Below are positions 3 to 6,212 of a DNA stretch of 6,792 bases, one piece after another. The stretch covers positions 1-6,792 of the forward strand of contig JAGWMT010000177.1 in NCBI GenBank assembly GCA_028871595.1. The letters run 5' to 3'. This DNA is from Elusimicrobiota bacterium. GTDB lineage: Bacteria; Elusimicrobiota; Elusimicrobia; UBA1565; UBA9628. A program made the position numbers and the translations under genes. Within the stretch, counting starts at the first letter, position 1. Each line of letters opens with the position of its first letter. The notes under the pieces were generated by a model. The model searched no databases. It was not told the origin of the DNA and worked only from the letters and a program-made list of their open reading frames with translations.

Positions 3-1532
3 AACCTGGCCGACGCGTCGCCCGAGGCGATGAGCGACCGCGTCGTGACCGACCTGCTGGAGGCGGCGGGCCCGGACAACATCGCGCTGACGCGCACCAT
101 CGCCAAATTCTTTCCGGTGGCCGTCAACGACCGCGGCTTCGTCGTACGCCTGCGCAGCGAGCCGCTCAAGCCCATCGTGGCCAGCTTCGTCCTGAAGAAC
201 AAGGGCGCGCTGCAGAAACCGGGCGCCTTGGCGGAGCTGGTGACCTTGCTGGCGCGCGCGGCCAGCATCCCGCTGGACGCGCCCACGTCCACGCCGGATC
301 CGACGGGCGCCGGCGTGCAGGGCGTGGACTCCGCGCTGGGGCCCGTGGACCTGATCATCGTCCCGCCCTCGGGCGCACCGACCGCGTTCGCCGCCGAAAA
401 CGACGGCGCGGCGCTGGCCCGCGCCTTCGCCGCGGCGGGCCTGGACGCGGGGCTGCTGTCCCGCTACGAATCCACCCCGCGCGCGGCGCTGCCCGCGGCC
501 GGCGCCCTCTGGCTGTCGGCTCCGGAGCATAAGCTGTACGCGCTGACCTTGGCCCTGCAGAACCGGGGCTTCGCCGTTCGCGCCGCCTTGCCCGAATATC
601 CGTTGGCGCGGGGAACGCCGGGCGCCGGCGGGACGGTGCTGGACCTGGGCGACGGCCAGACGCCGCCGGTCCTGCCCGCGGGCGCAAACGTCTCTTTGGT
701 CCGCGTCCGCGCGGGTTCCGGCGTCTCCGAGGCCCGCGTCATGGCGGCCTTGGAGTCGGTCGCCGCCCGGGCGCGGGAGAACGGCGGGCCGGCGACGATC
801 TCCTTGGCGTTGGGCGCGCCGACCGGACGGCGCACGCCGCTGTCGGCGCAGATCGACCGGCTGGTCGCCTCGGGCGTGGGCGTGGTGGTGGGCGCGGGCA
901 ACGCGGGACCCGCCTTGGGCACGGTCGCGTCGCCCGGAGACGCGAAACTGGCGGTGGTCGTCGCGGCGGCGTCCCGCGAGGCCGGACTCCAGTTCTACTC
1001 ATCCCGCGGCACTCCTGAGGCGCCGCGCGTGACGTGGACCGACCTCGTCGACGATCTGGACGTCGGGGCGCCGCTGGCGGATGCGGCGGCCGCCGCCGCG
1101 CGCGGAACCGCCGCCGCGGCCGAGCGCACCGCGGAAAAGCTGTCCCGCTTGGCGAAGCTTCTGGCCGACGCTTACGCGGCGAAGGGCCGGACGCTTCCCG
1201 CGGGCTGGTTCCCGTTCCTGGCCTCCGTCGTGGCCGCGACGTTGACGCCGATGCCGGCGCACTCGTCCCATGAGGTCGGCGCGGGCCTCTTCAACGACGA
1301 AGACGGCGCGCGCGCCGCGCTGAGCGCCCGCTTGACCGACCTGGACGCGGTCGAGCGGGAGGCCGCCGAGCTTTCCGCGCGCGCGCAGACCGAGATCGCC
1401 CCGCCGCCGCCCGCTGCTCCGCCCCAGAGTTTGACCCGCCGGGTCCTGCGCGCGGTCGCGACGGCCGCTCTGGCGGTCTTGCCGTCCCGCGCGGCGGTGG
1501 AATCCATCACGTCCCGCCTGGTCGAGAAATGA
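3..1532 (+). CDS. Subtilase-fold (S8-like) protein with degenerate active site, C-terminal part; 5' end outside the window
   Basis: The frame is open to the left edge. The ATG at 30 has no properly spaced ribosome binding site, so the real start is probably upstream; numbering below counts from it. About 100 unrecognised residues come first. A subtilisin-like core follows: strand SLVRVRAGSG, then ISLALG, then VVVGAGNAGP with the oxyanion Asn at 291, then YSSRG near 323 (family FSSRGP), and near the end EVGAGLFN, which fits the usual subtilase ending. The catalytic Ser motif GTSMA reads GTAAA, putting Ala at 361. The best match to HGTHVAG is RGTPGAG at 194-200, with Arg for His. I find no convincing DTG Asp motif. 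It is therefore probably a proteolytically dead pseudo-subtilase, perhaps binding or structural. The end has a Pro-rich stretch (APPPPAAPP) and a basic, hydrophobic helix. Its TGA overlaps the next ATG by four bases, implying coupled translation. The fold is fairly sure; the role is unknown. Confidence 0.72.
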   Translation, partial: NLADASPEAMSDRVVTDLLEAAGPDNIALTRTIAKFFPVAVNDRGFVVRLRSEPLKPIVASFVLKNKGALQKPGALAELVTLLARAASIPLDAPTSTPDPTGAGVQGVDSALGPVDLIIVPPSGAPTAFAAENDGAALARAFAAAGLDAGLLSRYESTPRAALPAAGALWLSAPEHKLYALTLALQNRGFAVRAALPEYPLARGTPGAGGTVLDLGDGQTPPVLPAGANVSLVRVRAGSGVSEARVMAALESVAARARENGGPATISLALGAPTGRRTPLSAQIDRLVASGVGVVVGAGNAGPALGTVASPGDAKLAVVVAAASREAGLQFYSSRGTPEAPRVTWTDLVDDLDVGAPLADAAAAAARGTAAAAERTAEKLSRLAKLLADAYAAKGRTLPAGWFPFLASVVAATLTPMPAHSSHEVGAGLFNDEDGARAALSARLTDLDAVEREAAELSARAQTEIAPPPPAAPPQSLTRRVLRAVATAALAVLPSRAAVESITSRLVEK

Positions 1533-4500
1533 CCGTTTCGCGGTCTTTCCGCGCGCTGCTCGCGCTCCTGATCGCGGCGTCGTCGTCTCTGCCGGCGGCG
1601 GCGCAAGTCGTGGGCGTCGTCGAGTCCGCGGCGCGCCCTTTGGGGATCCCTTCGGCTCCGTTGGCGGTGTCCGCGACGCCGTCATTTGCCGCGCCTCTGA
1701 CCGCCGTCGTTCCGTCCGCGGCACCGTTCGCCCCGGCGCCCTCTCTTGCGGAAACCCCGGTCGCCCCTGCCGCGGCGGCGCCGGCTTCGGCCGTGGCGGC
1801 CGCGGTTTCTTCGGCCCCGCGCGCCGCGCCGGCTCATGCGGCGCTCCGTCATGAGTCCGCGGCCGCCGCGGGAGAGGCCCCGCGCGCCTTCCTGGGCGCG
1901 ATGTTCGACGGCGCATCGCCCAGGCCCGCGGCCGCCCTGCCGGTGTTCGCCGCGCCGTCCGCGGGGGAAGGCGCGTCGCTTCGGCCTGACGTCTCCTCCT
2001 GGTGGAAGGATCCCTCCGCCACGCGGGCCGCGGTCAGCGTCCCGTTGTACTCCCTGCGGCGCGAGGAGCACGACCCCGGCATCGGCAAATACACGGACCT
2101 GGGCCGGTACTACAAGAACGTCCTGGCCCCGCAGGGCGTGGACGCCGTTCTTCTCCTGCCGCATTTCGCGGTGCTCGACGACAGCCCCTACGCGCCGGTG
2201 AGCCTCCAGGCCTTGAACGAGGACAACGTGGATTGGTCCGCGGTGGACGAGGTCCGGGCGCGGCCGGAGCTGTTGGCGCGCTTGGACGCGCCCGGCCAGT
2301 CCGCGCGCGAGAGCGTGGACTACGCGGGGCTTCGTTCGCGCGAGGGCGCCGTGGCGCGCGAGGCCCTGGCGGCGTTCACCCGGGAGCAGATCGCGAGGAA
2401 CACGCCGCGCGCCGCCGAGTACCGGAATTTCCTGGACCGGAACGCGGGCTGGCTGGACGAGTACGGCGAATTCATGGCGTTGTCGGCCCTCATCGGCAAG
2501 CCCGCGCTCGACTGGACGCCGGAGGCGGTCGCCGCGGCGCGCCGCGACCCGTCGTTCTCCGGCCGCGTCGAGGCGCACCGCTTCGCGCAGTGGCACGCCG
2601 AGCGCCAACTCAAGGGTGCCTTGAACGAGATCCACGCCGCCGGCGGCAAGGCCCTCTTCGACGTGCCCATGTTCCGGGCGAAGAATTCCGTGGATGCCTG
2701 GAAGCGTCCGGAGCTGTTCGCGGACCTGCGCACGCGCAACCCCGGCATCGTGAACGCCTGGGTCCATGAGGATTGGAAGGATCTGGCGTTGTGGCGCTGG
2801 TCGAAGCTCAAGGAAAACGGATATCGGGCCGCGCTGGAGCCGTTCGACCGCTGGCTGTCGTTCGGCTTCGACGGGGCTCGGGTGGACGCTCTTCATTTCG
2901 CCTACTCGTTCGGCAACGGGCAGATGGCCAGCGGCGACGAGCCGGGGGAGGATTACGTGCGCGCGCTGGCGGCCGTCTTCGCCAAGCATGGGGCGCTCCC
3001 TCTGGCCGAGGCGTTCGAGGGCAAGGACGCCGACGCGCGCCGCCTGGGCTTCGTCACCGTGGGGGGGGACTGGAAGAAGGTCAGCTCCCACGACGATCCG
3101 CGCAGCCCCGACTTTCTGGGGCGATACTTCGGCGCGCTCAACGACGGCTCCTCGGGCGCGAACGCGAAGTTCGTGGCCTACACCTTGGGGGACGAGTGGC
3201 GCGACCCGTTTCCGGTCAAGGAGATGCGCAACGGCCGCTCGTACTGGAACTACCGCATTCCGCTCCCGTCGGACCCGGACTACGCCGACCGGGCGCGCTT
3301 CGACGCCCGGCCCCAATTGAAAGTCATGAAAGCCCTCAAGGACGGAGACGAGTGGAAGGACCGGCAGGCCGTCAGGACGCTCTTGGGAGAAGCCGCCGAC
3401 GCCTTCGTGAAGCATGAGAACGGCTCGGTGCAGATCTGGGCCGCCAGCATGGACTGGTTCCTCGAGGAGTGGGGGAGAGACACCTTCGTGTCCTTGCCCG
3501 GGCTTCTCCTCTCCACCGGACGCCACGAGGAGGCCAAGGAGAATATCCGCCGCTTCGCGAAGTTCGAGCACGAGGGCCTGATCCCCAACAAGATATGGGA
3601 CGCCGCGCGCTGGACGCCGGAAAAAGCGGACGGCGCGGACTACAACACCGCCGACGCGCCGATGTGGTTCATCGCCGCGATCAAGAAGACCGTCGAGGCG
3701 ACGGGCGACTGGAAGTTCGCCGCGGAAATGGCGCCGGTCGTGCGCCGCATCCTCGCGCGCTATCAATCCGGCACCGGCTATCAGCGCTACGGCCGCTTGA
3801 ACCGCATTGAGATGGACTCCGACGGGTTGATCGTGACGCCCGCGCAGGCCACCTGGATGGACGCCGACCCGGACGGCAAGGACAAGCCCGTCACGCCGCG
3901 CAACGGCAAGGCCGTGGAGATCAACGCGCTGTGGTACGCCAACCTGCGATTCGCCGCCGACTTGGAGCGACGCCTCGGCCTGCCCGCCGACGCGAACGCC
4001 CACGAGGCGCTGGCGGCGAAGGTGAAGGCCAGCTTCAACGCGAAGTTCTGGTTCGTCAATGAGGAGAACCGGAAGGCGTGGGGCGGGGACGGCGGCGCCC
4101 TGCGCGATGTGGTGGACGGCGACCCCCACGGCGGGGCGGTTCGTCCGAACATGATCTTCGCCGTCAGCCACGGCGGCGACCTCCTGTCGCCGGAGCGGCG
4201 CGCCGCGGTGGTGCTGGCCGTGACCAAGGACCTGCTCACGCGCTACGGCCTGCGCACCCTGTCGCCGCGAGACAGTGATTATCGCGCCCGCTACGAGACC
4301 TGGAAGCCGGCGGCGGAGAAGGACTTGGCCTATCATCAGGGCACGGTTTGGCCGTGGCTGATGGGCGCCTACTCCGAGGCGCTGGCCGGGGTGCGCCGCT
4401 CCCAAGGCTGGGACGAGGCGCGCATTCAAGCCGAGCAGCGCGCGTTGATGACGCCGTTGGTGGCGGCCCTGGCGGCGCGCCCCGAGGGCTCTTTGCCCGA

Positions 4501-4696
4501 GGTCTTCGACGGCGGGAACCCCGACGCGGCGCTGGCCAATTGGTCCTTGGACGATCCGAGGGGCCTCGACGGCGTCTTCACGGGTCCCGGCGACCAGAAC
4601 CGCGGGGGCACGCGCTCCCAGGCCTGGAGCGTGGCCGAAGTCCTTCGCGTCCTGATCGAGCGCGGGCTGGTGCCGGCCGGCTACGACGGACGGTAG
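1529..4696 (+). CDS. Secreted bifunctional glycogen-debranching-type enzyme: GH77 4-alpha-glucanotransferase fused to GH133 amylo-alpha-1,6-glucosidase
   Basis: Predicted to move maltooligosyl branches (GH77) and hydrolyse the exposed alpha-1,6 glucose (GH133). Residues 1-25 form a signal peptide cleaved after PAAA; 26 to about 160 are Ala/Pro-rich linker. GH77 spans about 165-610: VPLYSL, GIGKYTDL, DSPY (218-221), FDVPMF, DAWKRPELF. The three GH77 acidic residues appear present: D453 in ARVDALHF (nucleophile), E494 in LAEAFEG (acid/base), D522 after H521 in SSHDD. The conserved PPDxFSxxGQxWGNP loop is missing and shortened (about 398-422). GH133 spans about 612-1055: EWGRDTFVSLPGLLL (647-661), TWMDAD (775-780), VTPRNGK then VEINALWY (788-803), RPNMIFAVS (872-880), YGLRTLSP (906-913), AYHQGTVWPW (934-943), PEVFDGG (990-996, E991 a likely catalytic base), SQAWSVAEVLR. 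The usual bacterial GH133 N-terminal domain is absent, with GH77 in its place. Translation is coupled to the upstream pseudo-subtilase. Domain calls are strong; substrate and export site are inferred. Confidence 0.9.
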   Translation: MTVSRSFRALLALLIAASSSLPAAAQVVGVVESAARPLGIPSAPLAVSATPSFAAPLTAVVPSAAPFAPAPSLAETPVAPAAAAPASAVAAAVSSAPRAAPAHAALRHESAAAAGEAPRAFLGAMFDGASPRPAAALPVFAAPSAGEGASLRPDVSSWWKDPSATRAAVSVPLYSLRREEHDPGIGKYTDLGRYYKNVLAPQGVDAVLLLPHFAVLDDSPYAPVSLQALNEDNVDWSAVDEVRARPELLARLDAPGQSARESVDYAGLRSREGAVAREALAAFTREQIARNTPRAAEYRNFLDRNAGWLDEYGEFMALSALIGKPALDWTPEAVAAARRDPSFSGRVEAHRFAQWHAERQLKGALNEIHAAGGKALFDVPMFRAKNSVDAWKRPELFADLRTRNPGIVNAWVHEDWKDLALWRWSKLKENGYRAALEPFDRWLSFGFDGARVDALHFAYSFGNGQMASGDEPGEDYVRALAAVFAKHGALPLAEAFEGKDADARRLGFVTVGGDWKKVSSHDDPRSPDFLGRYFGALNDGSSGANAKFVAYTLGDEWRDPFPVKEMRNGRSYWNYRIPLPSDPDYADRARFDARPQLKVMKALKDGDEWKDRQAVRTLLGEAADAFVKHENGSVQIWAASMDWFLEEWGRDTFVSLPGLLLSTGRHEEAKENIRRFAKFEHEGLIPNKIWDAARWTPEKADGADYNTADAPMWFIAAIKKTVEATGDWKFAAEMAPVVRRILARYQSGTGYQRYGRLNRIEMDSDGLIVTPAQATWMDADPDGKDKPVTPRNGKAVEINALWYANLRFAADLERRLGLPADANAHEALAAKVKASFNAKFWFVNEENRKAWGGDGGALRDVVDGDPHGGAVRPNMIFAVSHGGDLLSPERRAAVVLAVTKDLLTRYGLRTLSPRDSDYRARYETWKPAAEKDLAYHQGTVWPWLMGAYSEALAGVRRSQGWDEARIQAEQRALMTPLVAALAARPEGSLPEVFDGGNPDAALANWSLDDPRGLDGVFTGPGDQNRGGTRSQAWSVAEVLRVLIERGLVPAGYDGR

Positions 4697-4718
4697 TTGG
4701 CGCGCGGTCCGTTTTCTT
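4686..4718 (+). terminator. Possible Rho-independent terminator on the stop codon of the debranching gene
   Basis: ACGGAC (4686-4691) can pair with GTCCGT (4707-4712) around a 15-base loop, and TTTTCTT follows at 4712-4718. The T-run stands out in this GC-rich sequence. The stem is only 6 bp, plus one possible G-T pair, and it overlaps the end of the debranching gene, so termination may be weak. If real, it separates the debranching gene from the cytochrome gene and makes the TTG at 4697, which lies in the loop, less likely as the cytochrome start. Confidence 0.4.
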
Positions 4719-5392
4719 GCTTTCATTGGGTGTTGACTCAATATTGGCGTTGTCTGGCGGCGGGCATCCTGGTCGTCTTCGTGTCCCCAGCGCGGGCCGG
4801 CGACGGTCTAGCGCGTTTCGACGCCGCCGGCTGCCGGGCGTGTCACCGCATCGGCTTGCGCGGCGGCGACGCGGGCCCGGATCTGACGCTCGTCGGCGTG
4901 CGTCGGCCGCGCGCGTGGATCGCGCTGTGGCTGAAGAGCCCGCACGCGTGGAAGCCGGATACCAAGATGCCGGAGCAGGGGTTGTCCGACGCGGACCGCG
5001 GCGCGCTGGCCGATTTCCTAGCGGCGCAGAAAGGCCAGGCCTGGGGCGAGGAGCGTCCTTGGCGCGGCGCCGAGCCCGGCGAGATCTCCGGCCGCGCCGT
5101 CTACCTGCGCGCGGGCTGCGTGGCCTGCCACGGTCCGGCCGGGCGCGGCGGACATCCGAATCCGGGCGCCCACGGAGACGTGATTCCGGCGCTGGCGCCT
5201 TTGATGTCGACTTATAACAAGGAAGAACTGAAGGCGAAGATTCGGAGCGGCGTCGTCCCCGAGACCAACGACGGGAGGACCGCCGCCGTGGTCATGCCGT
5301 CCTGGAAAGGCGTATTGGACGACGACGAATTGGACGCCCTGACGACGTACCTGCTCTCGCTCGGCGAGGGACAACCGAAGTCCGACTGGTGA
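4697..5392 (+). CDS. Exported dihaem c-type cytochrome, probable electron acceptor of the downstream PuuD-like membrane protein
   Basis: Two class I cytochrome c domains follow a signal peptide. Haem 1 binds at C46-H50 (CRACH), with M91 in TKMPEQG as the likely sixth ligand. Haem 2 binds at C141-H145 (CVACH), with M200 in VVMPSW as likely ligand. The export signal is the hydrophobic run LAAGILVVFVS ending PARA, with cleavage near residue 34. There is no lipobox, so it should be periplasmic or held by an uncleaved leader. The longest frame starts at TTG 4697, directly after the previous stop. GTG 4730 or TTG 4733 also leave a complete signal peptide, and none of the three has a clear ribosome binding site; GTG 4730 fits better if the 4686-4718 hairpin terminates transcription. 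Only four bases separate its stop from the PuuD-like gene, so the two are surely co-transcribed. The cytochrome call is firm; the partner is inferred. Confidence 0.87.
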   Translation: MARGPFSCFHWVLTQYWRCLAAGILVVFVSPARAGDGLARFDAAGCRACHRIGLRGGDAGPDLTLVGVRRPRAWIALWLKSPHAWKPDTKMPEQGLSDADRGALADFLAAQKGQAWGEERPWRGAEPGEISGRAVYLRAGCVACHGPAGRGGHPNPGAHGDVIPALAPLMSTYNKEELKAKIRSGVVPETNDGRTAAVVMPSWKGVLDDDELDALTTYLLSLGEGQPKSDW

Positions 5393-5396
5393 CCAG

Positions 5397-6212
5397 ATGA
5401 ATGATCTGAAGGAATGGCTGAGCTTGCTGCTGCGCTGGATGCACGTGATCACGGGCATCATGTGGATCGGCCAGACCTACTTGTTCAATTGGATGGAGAA
5501 GGCGTTCGAGCCGCCGCAGGACGCCGCGGCGAAGCCGAACATCTCGGGCGAGCTCTGGATGGTGCACGGCGGCGGATTTTATCTGGTCGAAAAACAAAAA
5601 TGGCCGGAGATCATGCCGCGCACCTTGCATTGGTTTAAATGGGAGTCGTTTTTTACATGGCTGTCGGGATTTTTTCTGTTGGCCGTCGTTTACTGGACCG
5701 GAGCGCCGCTGCAGGAGTACGGCGCGGAGTTGAGCCGCGCCGCCGCCGTGGGCATCTCCGTCGGGTCGCTCATTGGCGCCGTCGTCGTTTACCGTTTGAT
5801 TTGGAAAACGCCGCTGGGCCGTTCCGAGGCCGTGGGCGGTGTCGTGTGGGGCGTGTTCCTGATCGCCATGGGGTCGTTCCTGACGCGCTTCTTCAGCGCG
5901 CGCGCGGCGTATCTGCACGTCGGCGCCATGATGGGGACCGTCATGACCACCAACGTCTGGATGACCATCATTCCCAACCAGAAGAAAATCATGGCCATCA
6001 CCGACGCCGGCGGCCCGCCCCGGCCGGAGCTGTCCGCGCAGGCCAAGCGCTGTTCCAAGCACAACACGTTCATGTCGATGCCGCTCTTGTTCTTGATGCT
6101 GTCGAACCACTATCCGGCCATCACGTTCGGCGGAGCGCATCCGGCGCTGGTGCTGGCGGTTCTGCTCCCGGCGGGGGCCTTCGCGGCGTACTTGATCCGC
6201 GAGCACTCCTAG
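5397..6212 (+). CDS. PuuD-like integral membrane protein (Urate_ox_N family) without the fused cytochrome c domain
   Basis: The protein has 271 residues and about seven membrane helices, near 6-28, 83-100, 116-136, 146-164, 170-191, 224-240 and 246-267. The pattern matches the membrane part of PuuD, the cytochrome c-linked urate oxidase (PF06181). Matching motifs are LLRWMHVITGIMWIG (11-25, H16), GELWMVHGGGFY (51-62, H57), LHWFKWESFFTWLSGF (77-92, H78), YLHVGAMMGT then NVWMTIIPNQKK (172-197, H174), and AKRCSKHN then FLMLSNHYP (216-240, H222 and H238). The His residues in or near helices are plausible haem or active-site ligands. Characterised PuuD proteins are longer, with a C-terminal cytochrome c domain; this one ends right after the last helix, and a dihaem cytochrome is encoded four bases upstream. 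No other purine-degradation gene is visible, so urate as substrate is inferred from family only. The gene has several clusters of TTT Phe codons, unlike its neighbours. Confidence 0.85.
   Translation: MNDLKEWLSLLLRWMHVITGIMWIGQTYLFNWMEKAFEPPQDAAAKPNISGELWMVHGGGFYLVEKQKWPEIMPRTLHWFKWESFFTWLSGFFLLAVVYWTGAPLQEYGAELSRAAAVGISVGSLIGAVVVYRLIWKTPLGRSEAVGGVVWGVFLIAMGSFLTRFFSARAAYLHVGAMMGTVMTTNVWMTIIPNQKKIMAITDAGGPPRPELSAQAKRCSKHNTFMSMPLLFLMLSNHYPAITFGGAHPALVLAVLLPAGAFAAYLIREHS

Follow-up and report, generated by a model that had tools for sequence, protein, structure and literature searches.

A predicted bifunctional glycogen debrancher of Elusimicrobiota, apparently built anew from GH77 and GH133 and fitted with an export-type N-terminus

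Introduction

Animals and fungi debranch glycogen inside their cells, with a transferase and a glucosidase joined in one debranching enzyme. In this eukaryotic enzyme (GDE or AGL; Candida glabrata, 5d06) a 4-alpha-glucanotransferase precedes an amylo-1,6-glucosidase in a single chain. The protein described here shares that composition and order, and equivalents of the eukaryotic D1241 and D1078 are present. It differs in having GH77 in place of the GH13-type transferase, in its export-type N-terminus and in size, its two domains spanning about 900 residues against about 1,530 in eukaryotic GDE; judging from a structure prediction, the domains are also apparently packed differently.

Each half also has relatives elsewhere. 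The GH133 barrel is common to the fusion and the archaeal and bacterial debranchers (TIGR01561; 7vma), whose chains are without GH77 and among whose matches the GDE_N domain (PF12439), not found in the fusion by Pfam to E 0.001, is common. Free-standing MalQ or amylomaltase (GH77; 1cwy) shares its fold over 410 residues and its nucleophile position with the fusion, but has no GH133, no export signal (by eye, in three proteins) and other motifs around all three catalytic acids. Bacterial proteins in which GH77 is joined to another alpha-glucan enzyme are represented by GlgX-MalQ and TreY-MalQ (NCBIfam PRK14510 and PRK14507, by model name). The GlgX and TreY partners belong to GH13, not GH133, and our fusion scores far below both cut-offs.

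Here we analyse a window of 6,792 nucleotides from an Elusimicrobiota bacterium (contig JAGWMT010000177.1) that encodes what appears to be a bifunctional debrancher put together from a GH77 and a GH133 enzyme, with an export-type N-terminus and a predicted activity. The initial annotation suggested that the two-step debranching chemistry had been built independently, and our results agree: evolution seems to have arrived at it twice, here with a transferase of a different family. The portions of published articles covered by our search, from PMC11046441, PMC4837477 and PMC4236520 among others, contain no description of GH77 with GH133 in one chain, nor of a link between a peptidase and a glycogen enzyme.

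Results

Architecture of the fusion protein

The fusion ORF comprises the following features:

1529..4696, + strand: GH77-GH133 fusion protein of 1055 aa, its N-terminus of the export type (ORF; Pfam PF02446 and PF06202)
1529..1603, + strand: signal-peptide-like segment, aa 1-25, predicted cut between AAA and Q (own heuristic)
1604..1999, + strand: Ala/Pro-rich linker, aa 26-157, 132 residues (composition)
2000..3343, + strand: GH77 (4-alpha-glucanotransferase) domain, about aa 158-605
3356..4678, + strand: GH133 (amylo-alpha-1,6-glucosidase) (alpha/alpha)6 barrel, about aa 610-1050

The initial annotation had placed GH77 and GH133 in one chain behind a linker of about 135 residues, and had set a domain search as the test of the N-terminal half. 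Both domains are borne out, as Pfam Glyco_hydro_77 (PF02446) scores 100.8 bits against a cut-off of 25 (profile positions 1-279 of 465) and GDE_C (PF06202) scores 303.3 bits, far above its cut-off; the linker measures 132 residues. A GH13-type transferase (PF00128) was not found in the protein by Pfam to E 0.001. Ten models were matched in an NCBIfam scan and none reached its cut-off, with 102.6 bits against 1399.55 for the eukaryotic debrancher (TIGR01531), 220.3 against 364.15 for the archaeal-type debrancher (TIGR01561) and 23.7 against 1322 for GlgX-MalQ (PRK14510); the MalQ model was likewise matched below cut-off.

The predicted structure is confident (pLDDT 92.2, pTM 0.89). Its domains match amylomaltase (1cwy, over 410 residues) and amylo-1,6-glucosidase (7vma), and in the model the amylomaltase fold extends over the whole GH77 domain, in keeping with the GH77 assignment. 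Whole-chain packing as in the yeast debranching enzyme was rejected for the model, with an rmsd of 20 A.

Catalytic positions

The GH77 clan layout has an Asp/Glu/Asp triad at the ends of beta-4, beta-5 and beta-7. The corresponding positions of the fusion, with those of its GH133 half, are:

2885..2887, + strand: D453, GH77 catalytic nucleophile position, end of beta-4 (53/53; aligned with RLD of canonical MalQ)
3008..3010, + strand: E494, GH77 acid/base position, end of beta-5, LAEAFEG (53/53; strand place from model)
3092..3094, + strand: D522, GH77 transition-state stabiliser position, SHDD, after beta-7 (53/53; strand place from model)
3479..3481, + strand: D651, equivalent of yeast GDE D1078, WGRD (alignment to 5d06; 53/53)
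3860..3862, + strand: D778, equivalent of yeast GDE catalytic D1241, TWMD (alignment to 5d06; 52/53, N in P0056)
4499..4501, + strand: E991, candidate equivalent of yeast GDE catalytic E1492, PEVFD (53/53)

The triad had been reported as in place, and the layout is indeed found, with all three residues invariant. Only D453 is confirmed by alignment to canonical MalQ, which fails beyond the nucleophile, and E494 and D522 are therefore assigned by motif, position on the modelled strands and invariance. Canonical RxDH is RVDA in the fusion (A454 in 53/53), AEDLG is AEAFEG and THDND is SSHDD. None of the three MalQ-type motifs is thus retained, as compared with four MalQ from related genomes, the sequences from which these motifs were chosen rather than from a published GH77 rule. 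On sequence grounds the GH77 half is a divergent branch of GH77, and since the motifs around all three catalytic acids differ from the four MalQ, its specificity may differ as well. When the GH77 half alone was used as query, all 13 matches were members or pieces of the fusion family; one member (P0123) apparently has no GH133 in its chain.

The GH133 half combines a GDE_C match and an (alpha/alpha)6 barrel with equivalents of D1241 and D1078 (D778 and D651). The pairing of E991 with E1492 is a candidate one, drawn from position and motif, as the alignments to 5d06 end before E991. For yeast GDE, PMC4837477 gives D1078 a leaving-group role.

Export-type N-terminus

GH77 and GH133 enzymes are usually cytoplasmic. 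We scored N-termini with a heuristic of our own (positive n-region, hydrophobic stretch, A-x-A-like site), dropping 13 partial-looking records of P0001-P0066 to leave 53. This signal test was passed by 41/53 family members and by 0/50 lone-GH133 controls, which came from other groups; several of the 12 family records that failed start inside the gene. An Ala-x-Ala-like site followed by Q recurs among family N-termini. The signal peptide that had been read at the start of the fusion is thus upheld as a prediction for aa 1-25.

Distribution of the fusion

Both domains are present in at least 63 proteins among the 120 matches listed, which rules out a one-off or chimera. An organism is named for 22 of these 63 (18 Elusimicrobiota, 2 Omnitrophota and 2 'bacterium', among the matches listed). 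Close relatives were sought across the genome collection, and 35 loci were recovered. Twelve of them (L001-L012) carry both halves, a few truncated where a contig stops, and the other 23 have a GH133 match only. Among 198 genomes from the phylum of G001 (the Elusimicrobiota genome that holds L011), 18 match at E 1e-30: nine with both halves in one match, seven with GH133 only, and two (G052 and G098) with both halves as two matches in one open frame of more than 3,200 residues. The fusion delimits an Elusimicrobiota family that has Omnitrophota relatives. It is not common on plasmids, as the 17 plasmid records that match do so over the GH133 part only and none covers 80%. Individual members show further features. 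In L011 (CP096137.1, a complete chromosome) there are in-frame stops and a frame change, from sequencing error or decay; the Omnitrophota chain P0055 runs on past GH77-GH133 into the start of a GH13 domain; and the C-terminal part of P0048 has no PDB sequence match.

Genomic context

Twelve genomes chosen for holding the fusion, mostly drafts in which absences are weak evidence, were searched for other glucan enzymes. A separate MalQ is present in all twelve (as two pieces in G008), ruling out the fusion as a replacement of cellular MalQ, and, by eye, the three separate MalQ with a readable N-terminus do not start with a signal peptide. GT5 and PF00128 matches also occur in 12/12, and a phosphorylase-family match in 11/12, at full length in G093 and G171 only. 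GlgX is above cut-off in just 5/12 (G003 holds two pieces), so a cytosolic debrancher was found in those five only, and in ten of the twelve the fusion is the sole GDE_C protein found. From these findings, the exported enzyme is an addition to the ordinary set, though several genomes are without a cytosolic debrancher that we could find. For the remaining ORFs of the window, Pfam matched no transporter or binding-module family.

A peptidase-linked unit

The region upstream of the fusion contains two features:

3..1532, + strand: upstream ORF, running off the window's 5' end and sharing 4 bases with the fusion gene (ATGA, 1529-1532)
339..1328, + strand: pseudo-subtilase domain, a subtilisin fold with pro-domain and without Asp/His/Ser motifs

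In the relatives of 2,700 residues, this ORF has its homologous counterpart in the segment that separates the HEAT repeats from GH77. It has the subtilisin fold of peptidase S8, and its 509 residues inside the window contain no DTG/DSG, HGT or GTS motif; a further S8 domain may lie beyond the window edge, as in relatives. Pfam gave no match for the window's upstream ORF, and Peptidase_S8 was matched by 2 of 11 homologous stretches, with a best E of 1.5e-4. Among the Csp proteins, one member is inactive. The Clostridioides difficile subtilase pair CspC-CspA (9pr8) resembles the upstream domain, which is subtilisin-like without catalytic motifs; unlike that pair, the window's pseudo-subtilase adjoins, and in relatives is fused to, glycoside hydrolases.

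A pseudo-S8 lies upstream of GH77-GH133 in 13/13 readable loci, in the same chain in eight of them, and S8 plus HEAT repeats are present in all ten loci that extend further upstream; this count leaves out L008, L009, L012 and L065, where the contig breaks off within the GH part or a short way upstream of it, and L070, a duplicate of L006. The Asp, His and Ser motifs of the S8 domain occur in 8/8 proteins that cover them (10 given). Fused and split labels do not cluster on the tree (shuffles were as low in 263/500 and 137/500), and strongly supported branches force at least three fused/split changes; the tree and alignment A1 leave out P0001 (a near-copy), partial records and L011. The S8 part is absent from the more distant giant proteins L061-L063. 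Two of these, L061:6790-17295 (3501 residues) and L062:7634-17341 (3235 residues), have a hydrophobic N-terminus by eye and join phosphorylase-like, GH77 and GH133 parts in one chain, as judged by motif and BLAST in both and also by Pfam in L061.

Discussion

We propose that the fusion is probably an exported debrancher of branched alpha-1,4/1,6-glucan with two active sites, which would act in the periplasm or outside the cell. The GH77 half would shift short maltooligosaccharyl stubs off branch points, and the GH133 half would then hydrolyse the single alpha-1,6-linked glucose that remains. The enzyme would be one module of a larger exported unit made up of an S8 peptidase, HEAT repeats, a pseudo-S8 and GH77-GH133, encoded as one chain in some relatives and as two adjacent genes in others, the window included. 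The original observation is confirmed, and its reading as an exported bacterial counterpart to the bifunctional debrancher is supported in part; it had missed the Elusimicrobiota family with its Omnitrophota relatives, and the peptidase linkage. Computation supplies the domains, the conserved catalytic positions, the confident fold, the export-type N-terminus in most relatives and the S8/HEAT/pseudo-S8 linkage. What the two halves catalyse and in which order, on what substrate and in which compartment they do so, and whether the peptidase plays any part are what we infer.

That the GH77 half takes no part in debranching transfer, having changed its specificity (to cyclisation, maltooligosaccharide disproportionation or plain hydrolysis) or mainly binding glucan for the GH133 half, would fit its non-canonical motifs, the partial Pfam coverage, the 13 same-family matches and P0123. 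The invariant triad and the GH77 fold over 410 residues argue for a working active site, however, and we consider such a loss rather unlikely. A cytoplasmic protein, with a membrane anchor or a misassigned start at its N-terminus, would accord with the usual location of these enzymes and with a signal call from our own heuristic, but it is very unlikely given the contrast between relatives and controls in the same test and the recurrent Ala-x-Ala-like site and Q. It is more improbable still that the separate fusion ORF is a frameshift artefact, the true product being one fused chain as in L002-L007. The 4-base overlap and the variable state among close relatives could be taken that way, yet P0001-P0014 start with a hydrophobic leader like that of the window ORF, 13 of these 14 pass the signal test, and L010 is likewise split, with its own leader.

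The source of the glucan is a separate matter. The GT5 and phosphorylase-family matches mean that these genomes probably make glucan, and the fusion could conceivably act on alpha-glucan that the bacterium itself has made, a glucan of the periplasm or surface, following export or lysis, rather than on outside food. By analogy, though, the glucan-making machinery would be cytosolic, and an enzyme with a signal peptide would end up apart from it; we regard this as a possible but unlikely source. The exported debrancher proposed here suggests that uncultured bacteria, some of groundwater origin, may feed on branched glucan or turn it over by this route, and that peptidases and glycogen enzymes are linked in these organisms. 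As a natural second solution, apparently packed differently and comparable with AGL, it also makes channelling by joined sites testable.

A more tentative idea, which we doubt at present, is that Elusimicrobiota export a self-processing polyprotein of about 2,700 residues. Maturation and delivery of the debrancher would then fall to the active subtilase, the HEAT repeats and the pseudo-subtilase of that chain. Fused and split gene forms would be interchangeable because proteolysis would give the same products, and a phosphorylase-like domain would join the chain in L061 and L062. If true, each of these two would be a single exported protein that unites the steps of glycogen breakdown, from phosphorylase through transferase to glucosidase.

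Other features of the loci

The end of the upstream ORF (window 1440-1529, RRVLRAVATAALAV) resembles the junction in fused relatives (RRALRSVLSGLLAF in L002), with a hydrophobic stretch just before GH77. Directly after the fusion (window 4697-6212) come a cytochrome c with two CxxCH and a membrane protein with a urate-oxidase N-terminal domain (PF06181). By eye, from ORF N-termini, a similar pair lies downstream of the fusion in L004, a cytochrome c in L007, L009 and L011, and a PF06181-like start in L006. A conserved gene of ~370 residues lies just upstream of the S8 gene in L010 (L010:1168-2286), L002, L003, L004, L006, L007 and L011; the L010 copy has DUF6588 and autotransporter beta-domain matches, both below cut-off, and is a possible outer-membrane partner. 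In L067:1708-8691, the S8-HEAT protein runs ~470 residues past the pseudo-S8, with a tail that by eye resembles the end of a GH13 enzyme.
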